Positions 6,429 to 12,503 of a stretch of DNA of 64,000 nt are shown here, piece after piece. The first letter of the stretch is position 1, and the number at the start of each line of letters is the position of its first letter. The notes under the pieces are model-generated. The model had not been told where the DNA came from. It saw only the letters and a program-made list of their open reading frames with translations, and did not search any database. The DNA comes from Micromonospora pallida (GTDB lineage: Bacteria; Actinomycetota; Actinomycetes; Mycobacteriales; Micromonosporaceae): positions 6,449,001-6,513,000 of the forward strand of contig NZ_FMHW01000002.1 of NCBI RefSeq assembly GCF_900090325.1. The letters run 5' to 3'. The position numbers were made by a program, and so were the translations under genes.

Positions 6429-7448
6429 TCAGTTCTCCGGTCCGCCCAGATCCAGCAGTTGTCGCCGGCTCAGCACGCCGACCGGTTCGCCGTCGTCGAC
6501 CACGACCGCCCGGTCGGCGGCCGAGGTCAGCAGGACAGCCAGCGCGTCGTACGCCGAGCCGCCCAACCGGACCCGGGGCAGGTCCGCGCCGTCGTCGCCG
6601 GTCAGCGGACGCAGCGTCGCGCGGGTGACCGGGGTGACCGCCAGCCGGCGGATGCCCCGGTCGGCCCCGACGAAGTCGCGGACGAACTCCGACGCCGGCT
6701 CGCCGAGCACCGCGGCCGGCGTGTCGAACTGTTCCAGCCGGCCGCCCTCGGAGAGCACCGCGATCCGGTCGCCGAGCCGGACCGCCTCGTCCAGGTCGTG
6801 GGTGACCAGCACGATGGTCTTGCGTACCTCGGCCTGTAGCCGGAGGAACTCCTCCTGCAACCGGGTCCGCACGATCGGGTCCACGGCGGAGAACGGTTCG
6901 TCCATGAGCAGCACCACCGGGTCGGCGGCCAGCGCTCGGGCCACGCCGACCCGTTGCCGTTGCCCGCCGGAGAGTTCGTGCGGGTACCGGCGACCGAACT
7001 GCGCCGGGTCGAGCCCGACCAGCTCGAGCAACTCGTCGACCCGGTGGCGGCTGCGCTCCTTCGACCAGCCGAGCAGCCGGGGCACGGTGGCGACGTTGGC
7101 GCGTACGGTCTGGTGCGGGAAGAGGCCGACGTTCTGGATGACGTAGCCGATCCGGCGGCGCAGTGTCACCGGGTCGACCCGGGTGACGTCGTCGTCGCCG
7201 AGCAGGACCCGGCCGGAGGTTGGCTCGATCAGGCGGTTGATCATCCGGAGCACGGTCGACTTCCCGCAGCCCGACGGGCCGATCAGCACCACGAGTTCGC
7301 CGGCCCGTACCTGGAGGCTCAGGTCACGCACCGCCTCGGTGCCGTCGGGGTAGCGCTTGCCGATCCCGTCCAGGGTGATCGACGCGGCGGTGCCCGTCGA
7401 CGCGGTCGCGCGGTCGGCGACAAGATCGGGGTCCGGGGTAACGTCCAC
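6429..7448 (-). CDS. opuCA: Osmoprotectant ABC transporter ATP-binding subunit with CBS domain
   Basis: Powers uptake of glycine betaine/choline-type osmolytes. From GTG 7448 the protein has 339 residues: Walker A GPSGCGKST, Q-loop, signature LSGGQRQRV, Walker B VVLLMDEPFSAVDP and switch THDLDEA, then a single CBS-like region near the C-terminus (VVVDDGEPVGVLSRRQLL). A GGAAGG ribosome site precedes GTG 7448 by 6 nt. The permease gene starts divergently only 2 bases away, so the two 5' ends must overlap. An extension further upstream in this frame is a shadow of the permease. Confidence 0.93.
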   Translation of the reverse strand: MDVTPDPDLVADRATASTGTAASITLDGIGKRYPDGTEAVRDLSLQVRAGELVVLIGPSGCGKSTVLRMINRLIEPTSGRVLLGDDDVTRVDPVTLRRRIGYVIQNVGLFPHQTVRANVATVPRLLGWSKERSRHRVDELLELVGLDPAQFGRRYPHELSGGQRQRVGVARALAADPVVLLMDEPFSAVDPIVRTRLQEEFLRLQAEVRKTIVLVTHDLDEAVRLGDRIAVLSEGGRLEQFDTPAAVLGEPASEFVRDFVGADRGIRRLAVTPVTRATLRPLTGDDGADLPRVRLGGSAYDALAVLLTSAADRAVVVDDGEPVGVLSRRQLLDLGGPEN

Positions 7449-7450
7449 GC

Positions 7451-8137
7451 ATGTCCTTCCGCCTGAGCTACCGGGCCGATCCGGGTAACCCGTGGTTCTC
7501 CTGGCAGTACGTTCGGGACAACTCCGACAGCATCGTCGCCGCGCTGGGGGAGCACGCCTCGCTGACCGCCCGCGCGGTGGTGATCGCCGCGTTGGTGGCC
7601 CTGCCACTGGCGGTGGCGGCGTACTGGTTCCGGCCACTCACCGGCCCGATTCTCGCACTGACGGGTGTGCTCTACACGATCCCGTCCCTGGCGCTGTTCG
7701 CCTTCCTGGCGCCGTACCTCGGAATCGGGGCGGTGACCGTACTCAGCGTGGTGGTGCTCTACGCGCTGCTGGTCATCGTGCGCAACGTGCTGGCCGGGCT
7801 CAACCAGGTGCCGCCCGAGGTGCGGGAGGCCGCCCAGGGCATGGGGTACGGCCGCTGGGGCCGGCTGTTCCGGGTGGAGCTGCCGCTGGCGCTGCCCGGC
7901 ATCCTCACCGGGCTGCGGCTCGCCACCGTCTCCACGGTCGCGCTGGTGACGGTGGGCGTGGTGGTCGGCCGGGGCGGACTCGGCCAGCTCATCTTCGCCG
8001 GCTTCCAGAACAACTTCTACAAGGCGCAGATCATGACCGGCACCCTGCTCTGCGTGCTGCTGGCGCTGCTGCTCGACCTGGTGCTGGCCGGGGTCGGCCG
8101 GCTGCTCACCCCCTGGTTGCGGAGGACCACCCCATGA
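7451..8137 (+). CDS. opuCB: Osmoprotectant ABC transporter permease 1
   Basis: 228 residues, six predicted helices, with NPWFSWQYVRDNSDSIVAALGEH at the start and the EAA loop VREAAQGMGYGRWGRLFRVELPLALPGILTG that contacts the ATPase. This is the OpuC/OsmU permease type. Its stop overlaps the second permease by ATGA, so the two membrane subunits are coupled. It is head-to-head with opuCA, an unusual arrangement because the ATPase gene is normally in the same operon. Confidence 0.92.
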   Translation: MSFRLSYRADPGNPWFSWQYVRDNSDSIVAALGEHASLTARAVVIAALVALPLAVAAYWFRPLTGPILALTGVLYTIPSLALFAFLAPYLGIGAVTVLSVVVLYALLVIVRNVLAGLNQVPPEVREAAQGMGYGRWGRLFRVELPLALPGILTGLRLATVSTVALVTVGVVVGRGGLGQLIFAGFQNNFYKAQIMTGTLLCVLLALLLDLVLAGVGRLLTPWLRRTTP

Positions 8138-8856
8138 GCGCGATCGAGCAGGCGGTGCTCTGGCTCAACGACCCGCTGAACTGGACCAACCCGGGCGGCA
8201 TCCTGGAACGGCTCACGGAACACCTGACCATGTCGGCGGCGGCGGTCGCCCTCGGCTGTCTGGTGGCCTGGCCGGTCGGGTTCTGGCTCGGGCACACCGG
8301 CCGGGGCGGTGGCCTGGTGGTGCTCGTCTCCAACGTGACCCTCGCCGTGCCGACCCTCGCCCTGCTGACCATCCTGCCGTTGACCTTCCTCGGGTTCGGG
8401 CAGCCGGCGGTGGTGGTCGCGCTGGCCGTCTTCGCCGTGCCGCCGCTGCTGGCGAACGCGTACACCGGGATCCGGCAGGCGGATCCGGAGGCCCGCGACG
8501 CGGCCCGGGGCATGGGCTTCTCCGGTTGGCAGGTGCTGCGCCGGGTGGAGTTGCCGCTGGCGGTGCCGTACCTGGCGGCCGGGTTCCGGACCGCCACCGT
8601 CCAGGTGGTCGCCACCGCCGCGCTGGCCTCCTTCGTCAACGGGGGCGGGCTGGGCCAGATCATCCGGGCCGGCTTCGGCCTGGACATCGCGGCCGGCGGT
8701 GGGCAGATCCTCGCGGGCGGGGTGCTGGTGGCCGGGCTGGCGATCCTGGTCGAGTTGCTCCTGGCCCTGGTCGAGCGGCTGGTCACCCCGCGCCCGCTGC
8801 GGCGGGTCCGCCGCCGGGCCAGCCGCCGCGCGGCGGGTGCCGTGGCCGGCGGCTGA
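8134..8856 (+). CDS. opuCD: Osmoprotectant ABC transporter permease 2
   Basis: 240 residues beginning MSAIEQAVLWLNDPLNWTNP, with six helices and an EAA loop (PEARDAARGMGFSGWQVLRRVELPLAVPYL split over the loop). The pair of related permeases plus the ATPase and the downstream binding protein make a complete OpuC-type importer. The C-terminal 20 residues are Arg/Ala-rich. Translation is coupled to opuCB (ATGA). Confidence 0.92.
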   Translation: MSAIEQAVLWLNDPLNWTNPGGILERLTEHLTMSAAAVALGCLVAWPVGFWLGHTGRGGGLVVLVSNVTLAVPTLALLTILPLTFLGFGQPAVVVALAVFAVPPLLANAYTGIRQADPEARDAARGMGFSGWQVLRRVELPLAVPYLAAGFRTATVQVVATAALASFVNGGGLGQIIRAGFGLDIAAGGGQILAGGVLVAGLAILVELLLALVERLVTPRPLRRVRRRASRRAAGAVAGG

Positions 8857-9209
8857 GCCGCTGGCGGGGGTCGAGCACTGAGGTCAGCCGTGGCCGGCGG
8901 CTGAGTCGCCGGTGGGGGTGAAGCCGCCGATGTGCTCGCCGGTTGCCGGGCCCGAGGGAGCCGGAGCCGGGTCACCCTGGGGTGACGCATGGGTGACGAT
9001 CCGGTGACAAACCCGCCATGCGGACTTGTCGGGCCGCCCCCGAAAGTGTTTCGTGGAACTTCTGCGAGCGCGTCTCGCGTGATTCCGCGAGGATGTCTCG
9101 TGGGATCCCACGGGAATCGACTCGGGGAGACACACGGGCGGCAGGACGATCGCCCGTCGGACACGCGGCCGGCCCGGACGGGTCGCGCCGGGACACAGGA
9201 GGCGGGCTG
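8857..9209. other. Gap before the binding-protein gene, with inverted repeats
   Basis: About 350 bases without a supported gene. A near-repeat GGCCGGCGGCTGAG appears twice around 8846-8903. At 9071-9118 two similar short hairpins follow each other; the second contains the perfect 14-base palindrome CGTGGGATCCCACG (9099-9112). A strong AGGAGG ribosome site (9197-9202) belongs to the next gene. The region is long enough for an independent, osmotically controlled promoter. Confidence 0.5.
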
Positions 9210-10217
9210 ATGATGCGCGCGCGTACTCGACTGGCCATCGGCGCGGTGGGCGCCCTTGCCGCAGCGGGATTCCTCACCGCCTGCGGCGACGCGGGCTCCT
9301 CTGGCACCGAGGCGCCGGAGGCAGCGGCCTCCGGTGCGGGCTGCGCCCCGGTCGCCGGCGACCAGTTGGTCGTCCTCGAGGACGACAAGAAGCTCCAGAA
9401 CACCGACAACGTCATTCCGGCGATCAACGCCAAAGCGGCGAACCCGCAGCTCATCGCCGCCCTCGACAAGGTTTCGGCGGTGCTGGACACGCCGAAGCTG
9501 GTCGCGCTCAACAAGGCCGTCGACGTGGACCGCAAGACGCCCGAGGCGGCGGCCGAGGAGTTCGCCACGGCGAACAACCTGACCGACGGCATCGCCAAGG
9601 GACCGGGTGGCCCGATCGTGGTCGGGGCGGCCAACTTCAGCGAGAGCCAGACCCTCGCCGAGCTGTACCGGATCGCGCTCACCGCTGCCGGATACCAGGT
9701 CAAGGTGCAGCAGGTCGGCAACCGTGAGCTGTACGAGCCGGCCCTGGAGAAGGGCGATATCCAGGTGTTCCCGGAGTATGCGGCGACCCTGGCCGAGTTC
9801 CTCAACAAGAAGGCCAACGGCAAGGACGCCCCAGAGGTCTCCTCGCCCGACCTGGACAAGACCGTCGCCGCCCTCAAGACGGCTGGCGAGAAGGCCGGTC
9901 TGACCTTCGGTGCGCCCTCGGCCGCCCAGGACCAGAACGCCTTCGCGGTCACCAAGGCGTTCTCCGACAAGTACGGTGTGACAACCCTCACCCAGCTCGC
10001 TGAGAAGTGCTCCGGTGCCGACACCGTGCTCGCCGGCCCGCCGGAGTGCCCGGAGCGAACGAAGTGCCAGGCCGGCCTGGTCCAGGTCTACGACTTCAAG
10101 GCCGGCTCGTTCAGCTCGCTGGACGCCGCCGGACCGCAGACCAAGAACGCCCTGAAGACCGGTGCCGCCAGCGTGGGCCTGGTCCTCTCCTCGGACGGGG
10201 CGCTCGCGGTCAGCTGA
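9210..10217 (+). CDS. opuCC: Osmoprotectant-binding lipoprotein with circularly permuted domain order
   Basis: A 335-residue lipoprotein: signal peptide with lipobox LTAC (Cys25), Thr/Ser/Glu linker, then the OpuAC-type fold. Residues 51-122 (VVLEDDKKLQNTDNVIP ... NKAVDVDRKTPEAAAEEF) match what is normally the C-terminal end of OpuCC/ProX proteins, while residues 133-335 (PIVVGAANFSESQ ... VYDFKAGSFSSLDAAGP ... LVLSSDGALAVS) match the usual N-terminal lobe and middle. The protein ends just where the family normally continues into the segment found here at the front. ATG 9210 has AGGAGG 7 nt upstream. It is the binding protein for the permeases ahead of it. Confidence 0.88.
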   Translation: MMRARTRLAIGAVGALAAAGFLTACGDAGSSGTEAPEAAASGAGCAPVAGDQLVVLEDDKKLQNTDNVIPAINAKAANPQLIAALDKVSAVLDTPKLVALNKAVDVDRKTPEAAAEEFATANNLTDGIAKGPGGPIVVGAANFSESQTLAELYRIALTAAGYQVKVQQVGNRELYEPALEKGDIQVFPEYAATLAEFLNKKANGKDAPEVSSPDLDKTVAALKTAGEKAGLTFGAPSAAQDQNAFAVTKAFSDKYGVTTLTQLAEKCSGADTVLAGPPECPERTKCQAGLVQVYDFKAGSFSSLDAAGPQTKNALKTGAASVGLVLSSDGALAVS

Positions 10218-10331: not shown

Positions 10332-12503
10332 ATGCCCGCTTCCGACGACAAGCGCGCCGCCTCGCGGTCGACCCTTCTCTTCCGGGCTGGTCTGGCGGTC
10401 GCCGCGCTCGCGGCGTTGCTGCTGCTGGTCGCCGACGGCAACGGTGTGCTGCGCGTCGCCGCCGTGCTCGCGATCGCCTCGGTGGTCATGATCGGCCTGT
10501 CGATCACCCTCCGTCCGGACGCCGTCGGCGAGGTGCGGCAGCTCGCCGACGAGATCGACGAGTTGCGCGCCGAACTCACCGCTGTCGCCCACTCCGCCCG
10601 ACAGGCCGCCGCCCCCGACCGGTGGTCGCCGGAGCCGGCGGCGGCTCGGGCCCGGGTCGGTGACGTGGCGACGGCCCGGGTCGGTGAGGTGTCGACCGAA
10701 CCGGCCGGCGAGCCACCCCGGGCCGGGCGGGCGCGGGTGGCGCCGGCCGACGTGGCCGGGGTGGATCCGCTCCGGCGGGGCGCCGACGAACCGGAGCCGG
10801 AGGAGGCGATGCCGGACCACCGTCCGCGTCGGGTCGCCGAGACCGACCACTGGCGGGCCGAGCCCGCGTACGGCCGTCACCCCGAGGAGCACCGTCACCC
10901 CGAGGAACACCGTCACCCCGAGGGACCCCGCCACCCCGAGGGACCCCGTCGCGCAGAGGAACACGCAGCGGGCCGCCGTGCCGAGGACCACCGGCGTACC
11001 GACGAACACGGAGCGGGCCGGCGGACCGGAGAACCGGGTGAGGGCCGCCGCCGGGTCGAGGACCGGGACGACGCTCACCGGGCGGAGGACGACCACCGCC
11101 GGGCCGGGGCCGGTGGCCGGCGCCGCGCGGACGAACACGACGGGTCGGCGGAGCACGGCACCGGGCGTCGGCGGGCACCCGAGCCGGACGAGGAGTCGTT
11201 CGGCGACCACCGGTCGGCCGGAGACTGGTACGCCGACGAGGAGCCGGCCGCCCGGTCGCGGGCCACCCCCCGGTACGCCGAGCGGTCGGCGGGCGGGGTG
11301 TACGGCGCGCCGCCCCGCTCCGACCGGTCCGACGGCCGAGCCGGGGCCACGCCCGGCCCGGAGGTACCATCCCGCCCGGTCGGCATGGTGCGGCACACCG
11401 AGACCGTGCACGTGACCACCCGGCACACCATCGTCGACGGCACCGGCGCGGACCCGGGTCCGGGCAGCGGCTACGGCCGGTGGACGCCGGCTGAGGAGCA
11501 GCCGTGGACGGGGCACGCCCCGGAGCGAGACGACCGGTGGGACGGCTACCCGCCGTCGGAGGACCATGCCCGACCGGGCCGCCCGCGTGGGTCGGCGCGG
11601 CCGGCACCGCCGTCCGGACACCCCGACCGCTCCTGGGACGCCCCGCCGGCCGGGTCCGGTCCGGCCGAGGCGCGGTCCTGGTCCGGCCCGGCGGACCGGT
11701 CCGGGTCGGACGGTTCCCCCGACTGGTCCGGCCACCGCGCACCGAACCAGGGCGGAACGGACCGGCGCACGCCGGCCGGTGACCGGGGCTGGTACGGGGC
11801 CGACGACCGGTACGGACCGCCGGGCGGAGACGACGGGCGGTCCCGGCGGAGCGCGGCGGAGCGGTCGGGCCGGACGTACCCGTCGACGGAGGCCGGGGCC
11901 GGGGCCGACGACTGGTCCGAGGTCCAGGCCGGCGGCCGGTGGGCGACCGTCCGGGACGACGGACACGGTCGGGAACTGCGGATGGGTGAGCGGCGGGCGG
12001 CGGTGCACGCCGACGACAGCGGCACCGAACTGCGGGTGGAGGACCATTGGGCGGCCGTCCGGCGGCCCCGGCGCGGGCAACCCGACGACGGGTACGACCG
12101 CGACGAGCCGGGCCGCGGTTCCCGGTCGGCGTACCCGCGCGGAAACGACCGGGGCGATCACCGCCCCGACCTGAACCGGGCGCTGCCGCCGGGCGGGGTG
12201 CCGGTGCCGGAGCAGTGGCGGCCCGCGCGGGGCGACCGTCCGACGCACGGCTGGTCGACGCCCGACGAACCCGAACCCGCGCCCGGCTGGTCGACGTCGC
12301 CGCACGGGCCCGAGTCGGCGCACGGCTGGTCGGGGTCGCATGAGCCCGAGCCGTCACACGGGCGGTCGGCGTCGCGCGGACAGCGGCCGGCCGACGACTG
12401 GCCGGATCCGGCCCGCCGGCGCGAGCCCGGCTCGGACCGGTACGGCCGGTCGTACGGGGAGCCCGAGCGACGCGGCGACGACTCCCCGGGGCACTGGCGC
12501 TGA
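10332..12503 (+). CDS. Membrane-anchored protein with a very long disordered tail
   Basis: 723 residues. Two hydrophobic helices (about 18-38 and 42-60) are followed by a short coiled coil (VGEVRQLADEIDELRAELTAV), then about 620 residues of Arg, Asp, Glu, Pro, Gly and His-rich low complexity. This includes a His-Pro-Glu repeat block (EEHRHPEEHRHPEGPRHPEG) and many DRW/WSG motifs. The organisation resembles the Arg/Ala/Pro-rich membrane protein Rv3604c of the same mycobacterial cluster (DUF6779 from memory). A TAGGCT hexamer ends 8 nt before ATG 10332. Function unknown; the coiled coil and tail suggest a scaffold. Confidence 0.75.
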   Translation: MPASDDKRAASRSTLLFRAGLAVAALAALLLLVADGNGVLRVAAVLAIASVVMIGLSITLRPDAVGEVRQLADEIDELRAELTAVAHSARQAAAPDRWSPEPAAARARVGDVATARVGEVSTEPAGEPPRAGRARVAPADVAGVDPLRRGADEPEPEEAMPDHRPRRVAETDHWRAEPAYGRHPEEHRHPEEHRHPEGPRHPEGPRRAEEHAAGRRAEDHRRTDEHGAGRRTGEPGEGRRRVEDRDDAHRAEDDHRRAGAGGRRRADEHDGSAEHGTGRRRAPEPDEESFGDHRSAGDWYADEEPAARSRATPRYAERSAGGVYGAPPRSDRSDGRAGATPGPEVPSRPVGMVRHTETVHVTTRHTIVDGTGADPGPGSGYGRWTPAEEQPWTGHAPERDDRWDGYPPSEDHARPGRPRGSARPAPPSGHPDRSWDAPPAGSGPAEARSWSGPADRSGSDGSPDWSGHRAPNQGGTDRRTPAGDRGWYGADDRYGPPGGDDGRSRRSAAERSGRTYPSTEAGAGADDWSEVQAGGRWATVRDDGHGRELRMGERRAAVHADDSGTELRVEDHWAAVRRPRRGQPDDGYDRDEPGRGSRSAYPRGNDRGDHRPDLNRALPPGGVPVPEQWRPARGDRPTHGWSTPDEPEPAPGWSTSPHGPESAHGWSGSHEPEPSHGRSASRGQRPADDWPDPARRREPGSDRYGRSYGEPERRGDDSPGHWR

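Follow-up and report, generated by a model that had tools for sequence, protein, structure and literature searches.

A circularly permuted OpuC/ProX-type substrate-binding lipoprotein of Micromonospora pallida with a probable disulfide staple on its new N-terminal arm

Betaine-binding proteins (2B4L, 1R9L, 1SW1) were reported in 2008 to be circularly permuted, Bacillus subtilis OpuAC relative to ProX (PMC2395249), and OpuAC (2B4L, 2B4M, 5NXX, 3CHG) has the type II betaine-binding fold. A permuted type I substrate-binding protein (SBP) was reported in 2016: TpMglB-2 (Tp0684), the ‘type Ic’ glucose-binding lipoprotein of Treponema pallidum and thus also a natural permutant of a membrane-anchored SBP, for which the authors also suggest anchoring as a reason for permutation (PMC4990184). 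In the stretch of Micromonospora pallida DNA analysed here (64,000 nucleotides, ‘the window’; positions 6,449,001 to 6,513,000 of NZ_FMHW01000002.1, assembly GCF_900090325.1), the gene at 9210–10217 encodes a circularly permuted OpuC/ProX-type SBP whose order, type W, has the usual C-terminal segment ahead of the usual N-terminal and middle segments. Our preferred reading, to which we give a probability of roughly 0.78, is that W proteins are the SBPs of an OpuC-like importer, permuted once and in place, with their new ends in the β3–β4 loop of lobe 2, and that a disulfide between Cys45 and Cys267 pins the N-terminal arm in all sampled W lineages except family f123. Permutation among glycine-betaine binding proteins is already known; what is new is probably the cut site, its recurrence and the probable staple. 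No account of the W order, its cut site, recurrence or cysteine pair was found among the titles and abstract starts listed (subscription papers lay mostly outside the search), and within that scope the remark of an initial annotation, made from the sequence alone, that such proteins are little described is fair.

Judging from a structure alignment and from what we take to be the OpuAC sequence, OpuAC resembles W in that the lobe 1 parts of the usual C- and N-terminal segments (C1 and N1) would follow each other in one stretch. Its order of lobe 2, C1 and N1 is not that of W, however: 2b4l aligns in order with residues 39–265 of the W model only, and end to end with the model of another permuted type, X. 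Types X and Y, carried by other Actinomycetota, belong to the same sequence family as W and also have a contiguous lobe 1 and a cut lobe 2, but are cut before β1 (X) and before β2 (Y), where W is cut before β4, and have no counterpart of Cys45. The linear OpuC type (Archaeoglobus fulgidus ProX, OpuBC/OpuCC, YehZ/OsmF, EgtUC) is homologous to W in every segment; it differs in its linear order, and W is without three of the four ProX cage tyrosines. TpMglB-2 differs from W in its type I/cluster B fold, in its cut and, according to its authors, in having four lobe crossovers, where W would keep two.

The ATG of the W gene is directly preceded by AGGAGG. Under the lipobox rule, the motif LTAC would make Cys25 the acylated residue, and this cysteine is invariant in 45/45 aligned W proteins. 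The product matches Pfam OpuAC (PF04069) with 128.6 bits (cut-off 21.2) and an expectation value (E) of 4.2e-37. The match is split in two, the better part covering residues 135–332 (profile positions 2–183 of 257), and the profile does not run from 1 to 257 in one direction: in a profile search of the genome, positions 187–255 (E 2.0e-9) precede positions 2–184 (E 1.1e-26) in one stop-free frame. With solved ProX (1sw1), residues 136–297 align to ProX 8–163 and residues 53–119 to ProX 201–268, the latter weakly when taken alone (12.2 bits). Rotation of the sequence (133–335 followed by 48–128) joins the two matches into a single continuous alignment with ProX 8–268 and improves E from 1.2e-10 to 1.9e-12; in total, the rotated sequence finds 20 distinct solved chains (E up to 0.001), every one as a single stretch. 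The initial annotation had placed the OpuCC/ProX C-terminal segment before the N-terminal one, and both the PF04069 order and the 1sw1 alignments bear this out, with its segment boundaries correct to within a few residues. The permuted order is present in all of the best 120 of 4,958 database relatives and, by match range, in 97/121 sampled genomes of the window's own family, so homologs do share it. A frameshift or assembly artefact, named earlier as what would overturn the permutation, is excluded by the single open frame and by these 120 relatives, which come from many projects; we regard an artefact of any kind, annotation included, as extremely improbable.

The AlphaFold2 model of the W protein (predicted local distance difference test, pLDDT, 88.9; residues 1–35 below 50) has, in order, a strand at 53–57, a strand at 67–73, three helices, the elements from 135–140 onward and a last strand at 322–326. 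Assigned to the usual order of type II elements, 53–57 would be the last strand (β4) of lobe 2, 67–73 the antiparallel strand of lobe 1 and 243–248 that of lobe 2, an assignment that would place the new termini between β3 and β4 of lobe 2 and keep both crossovers. The two-lobed fold would thus be ordinary, with the old ends joined inside lobe 1 via a short linker: the mature chain would begin with β4, cross to lobe 1, complete it, cross back and end past β3, so that the membrane anchor would lead into lobe 2, not lobe 1. The best structural matches of the model are OpuA- and OpuC-type proteins; a sequential aligner aligns linear OpuC-type structures from model residue 126–135 on, and this offset, with that of OpuAC, fits what a permutation predicts for the model. 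A cut in the hinge crossover, with the disulfide replacing a lost link between the lobes, was considered and dropped, since 53–57 look like a lobe 2 strand and both crossovers stay.

The initial annotation mentioned neither the extra cysteines nor any further permutant types. Cys45, in the new N-terminal arm, and Cys267, just before β1 of lobe 2, are both invariant in 45/45 aligned W proteins. They were then scored by pairwise alignment in 210 distinct proteins from genomes, the segment order of each being known (143 are W, 50 linear, 15 X and 2 Y), a census that leaves aside four single-segment frames (one each from L026 and L124, two from L206). Both residues are present in 132/143 W proteins, neither is in 11/143 and just one in 0/143; a W row seemingly without Cys267 in an earlier alignment disappeared in pairwise alignment. 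Counterparts of either residue were found in 0/50 linear and 0/2 Y proteins, and of Cys45, the one position scored in X, in 0/15 X proteins. An older pair, Cys280 and Cys286, occurs in 94/94 W and 45/46 linear proteins.

From this distribution, Cys45 and Cys267 probably form a disulfide staple between lobe 2 and the new N-terminal arm; it would pin the otherwise loose arm and strand against the start of β1. In the AlphaFold2 model the arm is docked and residue 43 forms a bridge, and β1 is shorter in the X model (53–56) than in the W model (269–276), its greater length in W fitting an extra contact without being proof of one. The permutation could be real and the two cysteines still not bonded to each other, each pairing elsewhere (intermolecularly or with a membrane partner) or remaining a free thiol, and the presence of the older pair would make exchange possible; the both-or-neither pattern in 143/143 W proteins, the absence of Cys45 and Cys267 from all linear proteins and the joint occurrence of Cys280 and Cys286 in nearly all linear relatives make such an arrangement unlikely, and we retain the Cys45–Cys267 bond.

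Beside the SBP gene lie a divergent ATPase gene, whose true start is probably inside its frame, and two permease genes (Table 1), and these, with the SBP lipobox, are components expected of an OpuC-type importer; the protein would be the substrate-binding lipoprotein of an OpuC-like ATP-binding cassette (ABC) importer. Loci exceeding 9 kb number 78, all W; the arrangement ATPase(−), permease(+), permease(+), SBP(+) is found in 75 of them and, with an extra ATPase hit, in one, and two lack genes of this set. Linear SBPs of L118 and L120 lie in a gene order identical to that of W loci, and L022 is a close relative that is still linear (54% identity over residues 124–333). Most likely a single event, presumably a duplication, permuted the SBP gene in place within such a transporter locus.

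Table 1 Features of the permuted SBP gene and its transporter locus in the window.
Feature	Position	Strand	Basis or remark
Type W circularly permuted substrate-binding lipoprotein	9210..10217	+	335 aa + stop; translation, profile and structure-database matches
Signal peptide and putative lipobox LTAC (residues 22–25), acylated Cys25	9210..9284	+	sequence
Cys45, in the new N-terminal arm; would form a disulfide with Cys267	9342..9344	+	alignments
Usual C-terminal segment, residues 52–122: lobe 2 β4 (53–57), crossover into lobe 1 (C1)	9363..9575	+	profile, ProX alignment, AlphaFold2; lobes as predicted
New linker, residues 123–134, from old C-terminus to old N-terminus inside lobe 1	9576..9611	+	
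Usual N-terminal and middle segments, residues 135–335: rest of lobe 1 (N1), then lobe 2 past β3 (322–326)	9612..10214	+	
Cys267, end of helix 260–267 just before strand 269–276 (β1, lobe 2); proposed partner of Cys45	10008..10010	+	alignments, AlphaFold2
Cys280 and Cys286 (ECPxRxxC), older pair common with linear relatives	10047..10067	+	alignment
ABC transporter ATPase, divergent	6429..7637	−	313.2 bits to the betaine/proline/choline class, its best NCBIfam match (slightly below the cut-off of 326.6)
Permease 1	7451..8137	+	Pfam/NCBIfam
Permease 2	8125..8856	+	Pfam/NCBIfam

All trees were quick searches with support from the Shimodaira–Hasegawa-like approximate likelihood ratio test (SH-aLRT) only; the main tree excluded L160, L161 and L200 as long branches, and its 41 W rows were hand-picked from the 143. 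A single W origin was not rejected by the approximately unbiased (AU) test, and W as a whole has a support of 98 without L021. The 11 cysteine-free W proteins are every W protein fetched from family f123 (three further f123 genomes, G942, G985 and G1008, have linear-type ranges only); they branch as sister to the W proteins that carry the cysteines (support 97 and 99), a position that implies either one loss of the Cys45/Cys267 pair or its gain subsequent to the permutation.

Several observations weigh against the preferred reading. The free tree separates L021, a long branch, from the rest of W, and the C-segment tree places the C segment of L021 closest to linear rows; holding W together with L021 included gave a likelihood 6.07 above that of the free tree, and W including L021 formed one group (support 77) in a previous 83-row tree. 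The cysteine pattern reflects roughly a single change on the tree, a gain or a loss, instead of many independent ones, and the 11 W proteins without the pair show that the staple is not essential. The best Foldseek matches reach template modelling (TM) scores of 0.36–0.41 over the model, as expected of a sequential aligner faced with a permutant, and are no proof of one. Finally, the ProX tyrosines 63, 111, 190 and 214, which we take to be the aromatic cage residues, correspond to Y190, N243, L326 and D66, so that one of four is kept (by low-identity sequence alignment, not structure).

Fusion of the C1 segment of another SBP to the front of a truncated SBP, in place of duplication, would give the same segment order, and the lack of any 1.5-copy W intermediate among the proteins found as well as the position of L021 in the C-segment tree are in its favour. 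We nonetheless consider it quite unlikely, as the best linear matches of both segments (13 fetched) belong to the same groups (L022, L023, L024 and L027), the separate segment trees both keep W together (the C part having just 76 columns), and two 1.5-copy proteins of type X, which may be chimaeras, have the form expected from a duplication.

Because W differs from ProX at three of four presumed cage tyrosines, the osmoprotectant annotation of the W clade is doubtful; the OsmF equivalog NF049931 gives 60.7 bits, below its cut-off of 400. The same substitutions, and broken copies elsewhere (L206, split over two frames, and a G774 match holding one TGA), could point to a degenerating or non-transport paralogue. 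This is improbable, since the protein is the sole strong OpuAC match of its genome (the other two reach 20–21 bits), sits in a complete and conserved transporter locus and shows good conservation (mean column identity 66% across 45 W rows).

Among the other permutants, X (L145, L151, L115–L117, L190–L194 and others) is cut as in B. subtilis OpuAC, and the chain of Y (L137 and L152, both of family f114) begins at β2 of lobe 2; all W, X and Y cuts seem to fall in lobe 2. With test groups fixed after the first tree and before the AU tests, a single X origin (without later returns to linear order) was rejected (p-AU 0.00025), as was a joint single origin of X and Y (p-AU 0.00018). X as a plain OpuAC orthologue was dropped: X matches linear OpuC-type chains by sequence (27 listed, OpuAC not among them) and is placed among linear proteins on the tree, from which OpuAC was absent. 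It is, in our estimate, slightly better than an even bet that the SBP family underwent at least four permutations in Actinomycetota (one for W, at least two for X, one for Y), each cutting lobe 2, at three loops in all, and moving the anchor from lobe 1 to lobe 2, with the disulfide staple added later in W, where the cut leaves a lone N-terminal strand, and with f123 as the earlier, unstapled state.

Two proteins, P0163 and P0124, have by segment matches the layout of 1.5-copy binding proteins (442 and 465 residues). They may be X intermediates of permutation by duplication, or chimaeras; each is one sequence, P0124 on a 1,531-base contig and P0163 without a contig.

In the window's own family, 103 of 121 genomes match at E up to 1e-20 and 18 have no match at that limit; 97 of the 103 have W-type ranges (one truncated at a contig end, another with an internal TGA) and six linear-type ranges only, four of which were fetched and are all linear. 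The genus of the window matches in 33/34 listed genomes, G955 being without a match. Across the order, 98 of 249 genomes match at E up to 1e-30, with W present in families f1, f4, f119, f121, f123 and f126; across the class, 277 of 394 match at E up to 1e-3, and among the matches listed 17/17 full-length ones are permuted and the next 13 fetched are all linear. The class sample adds W in families f11, f20, f31 and f42. Among the database relatives, named W carriers beyond Micromonosporaceae include Motilibacter, Angustibacter and a Sporichthyaceae metagenome-assembled genome (MAG). One genus holds both a W genome (G051) and a linear one (G068).

W-type proteins P0245 and P0335 come from MAGs labelled Spirochaetaceae and Candidatus Limnocylindria, and are perhaps mis-binned or transferred. 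L201 and L227, from two f4 genomes that share a genus, each have paired neighbouring W-type binding protein genes, and in L206 a W-type gene is split across two frames.

Natural circular permutants with close linear relatives in the same kind of locus are useful and, to our knowledge, rare test material. Linear proteins, W with and without the cysteines, X and Y coexist here and offer a natural series for effects of chain order on folding, hinge and anchor position. Sensors have already been built on SBPs of this family as scaffolds (the structure matches include iNicSnFR and iAChSnFR), and naturally tolerated termini in lobe 2 may be of use in sensor design.

A perfect 14-base palindrome, CGTGGGATCCCACG, lies at 9099–9112, ~98 bases upstream of the gene. 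It is not conserved, as only 3/229 loci hold it, all of them the window's own gene, and about one match with two mismatches allowed is expected by chance. Downstream, a 723-residue open frame (10332–12503, +) rich in charged and low-complexity stretches matches nothing in Pfam or NCBIfam with E up to 0.001.
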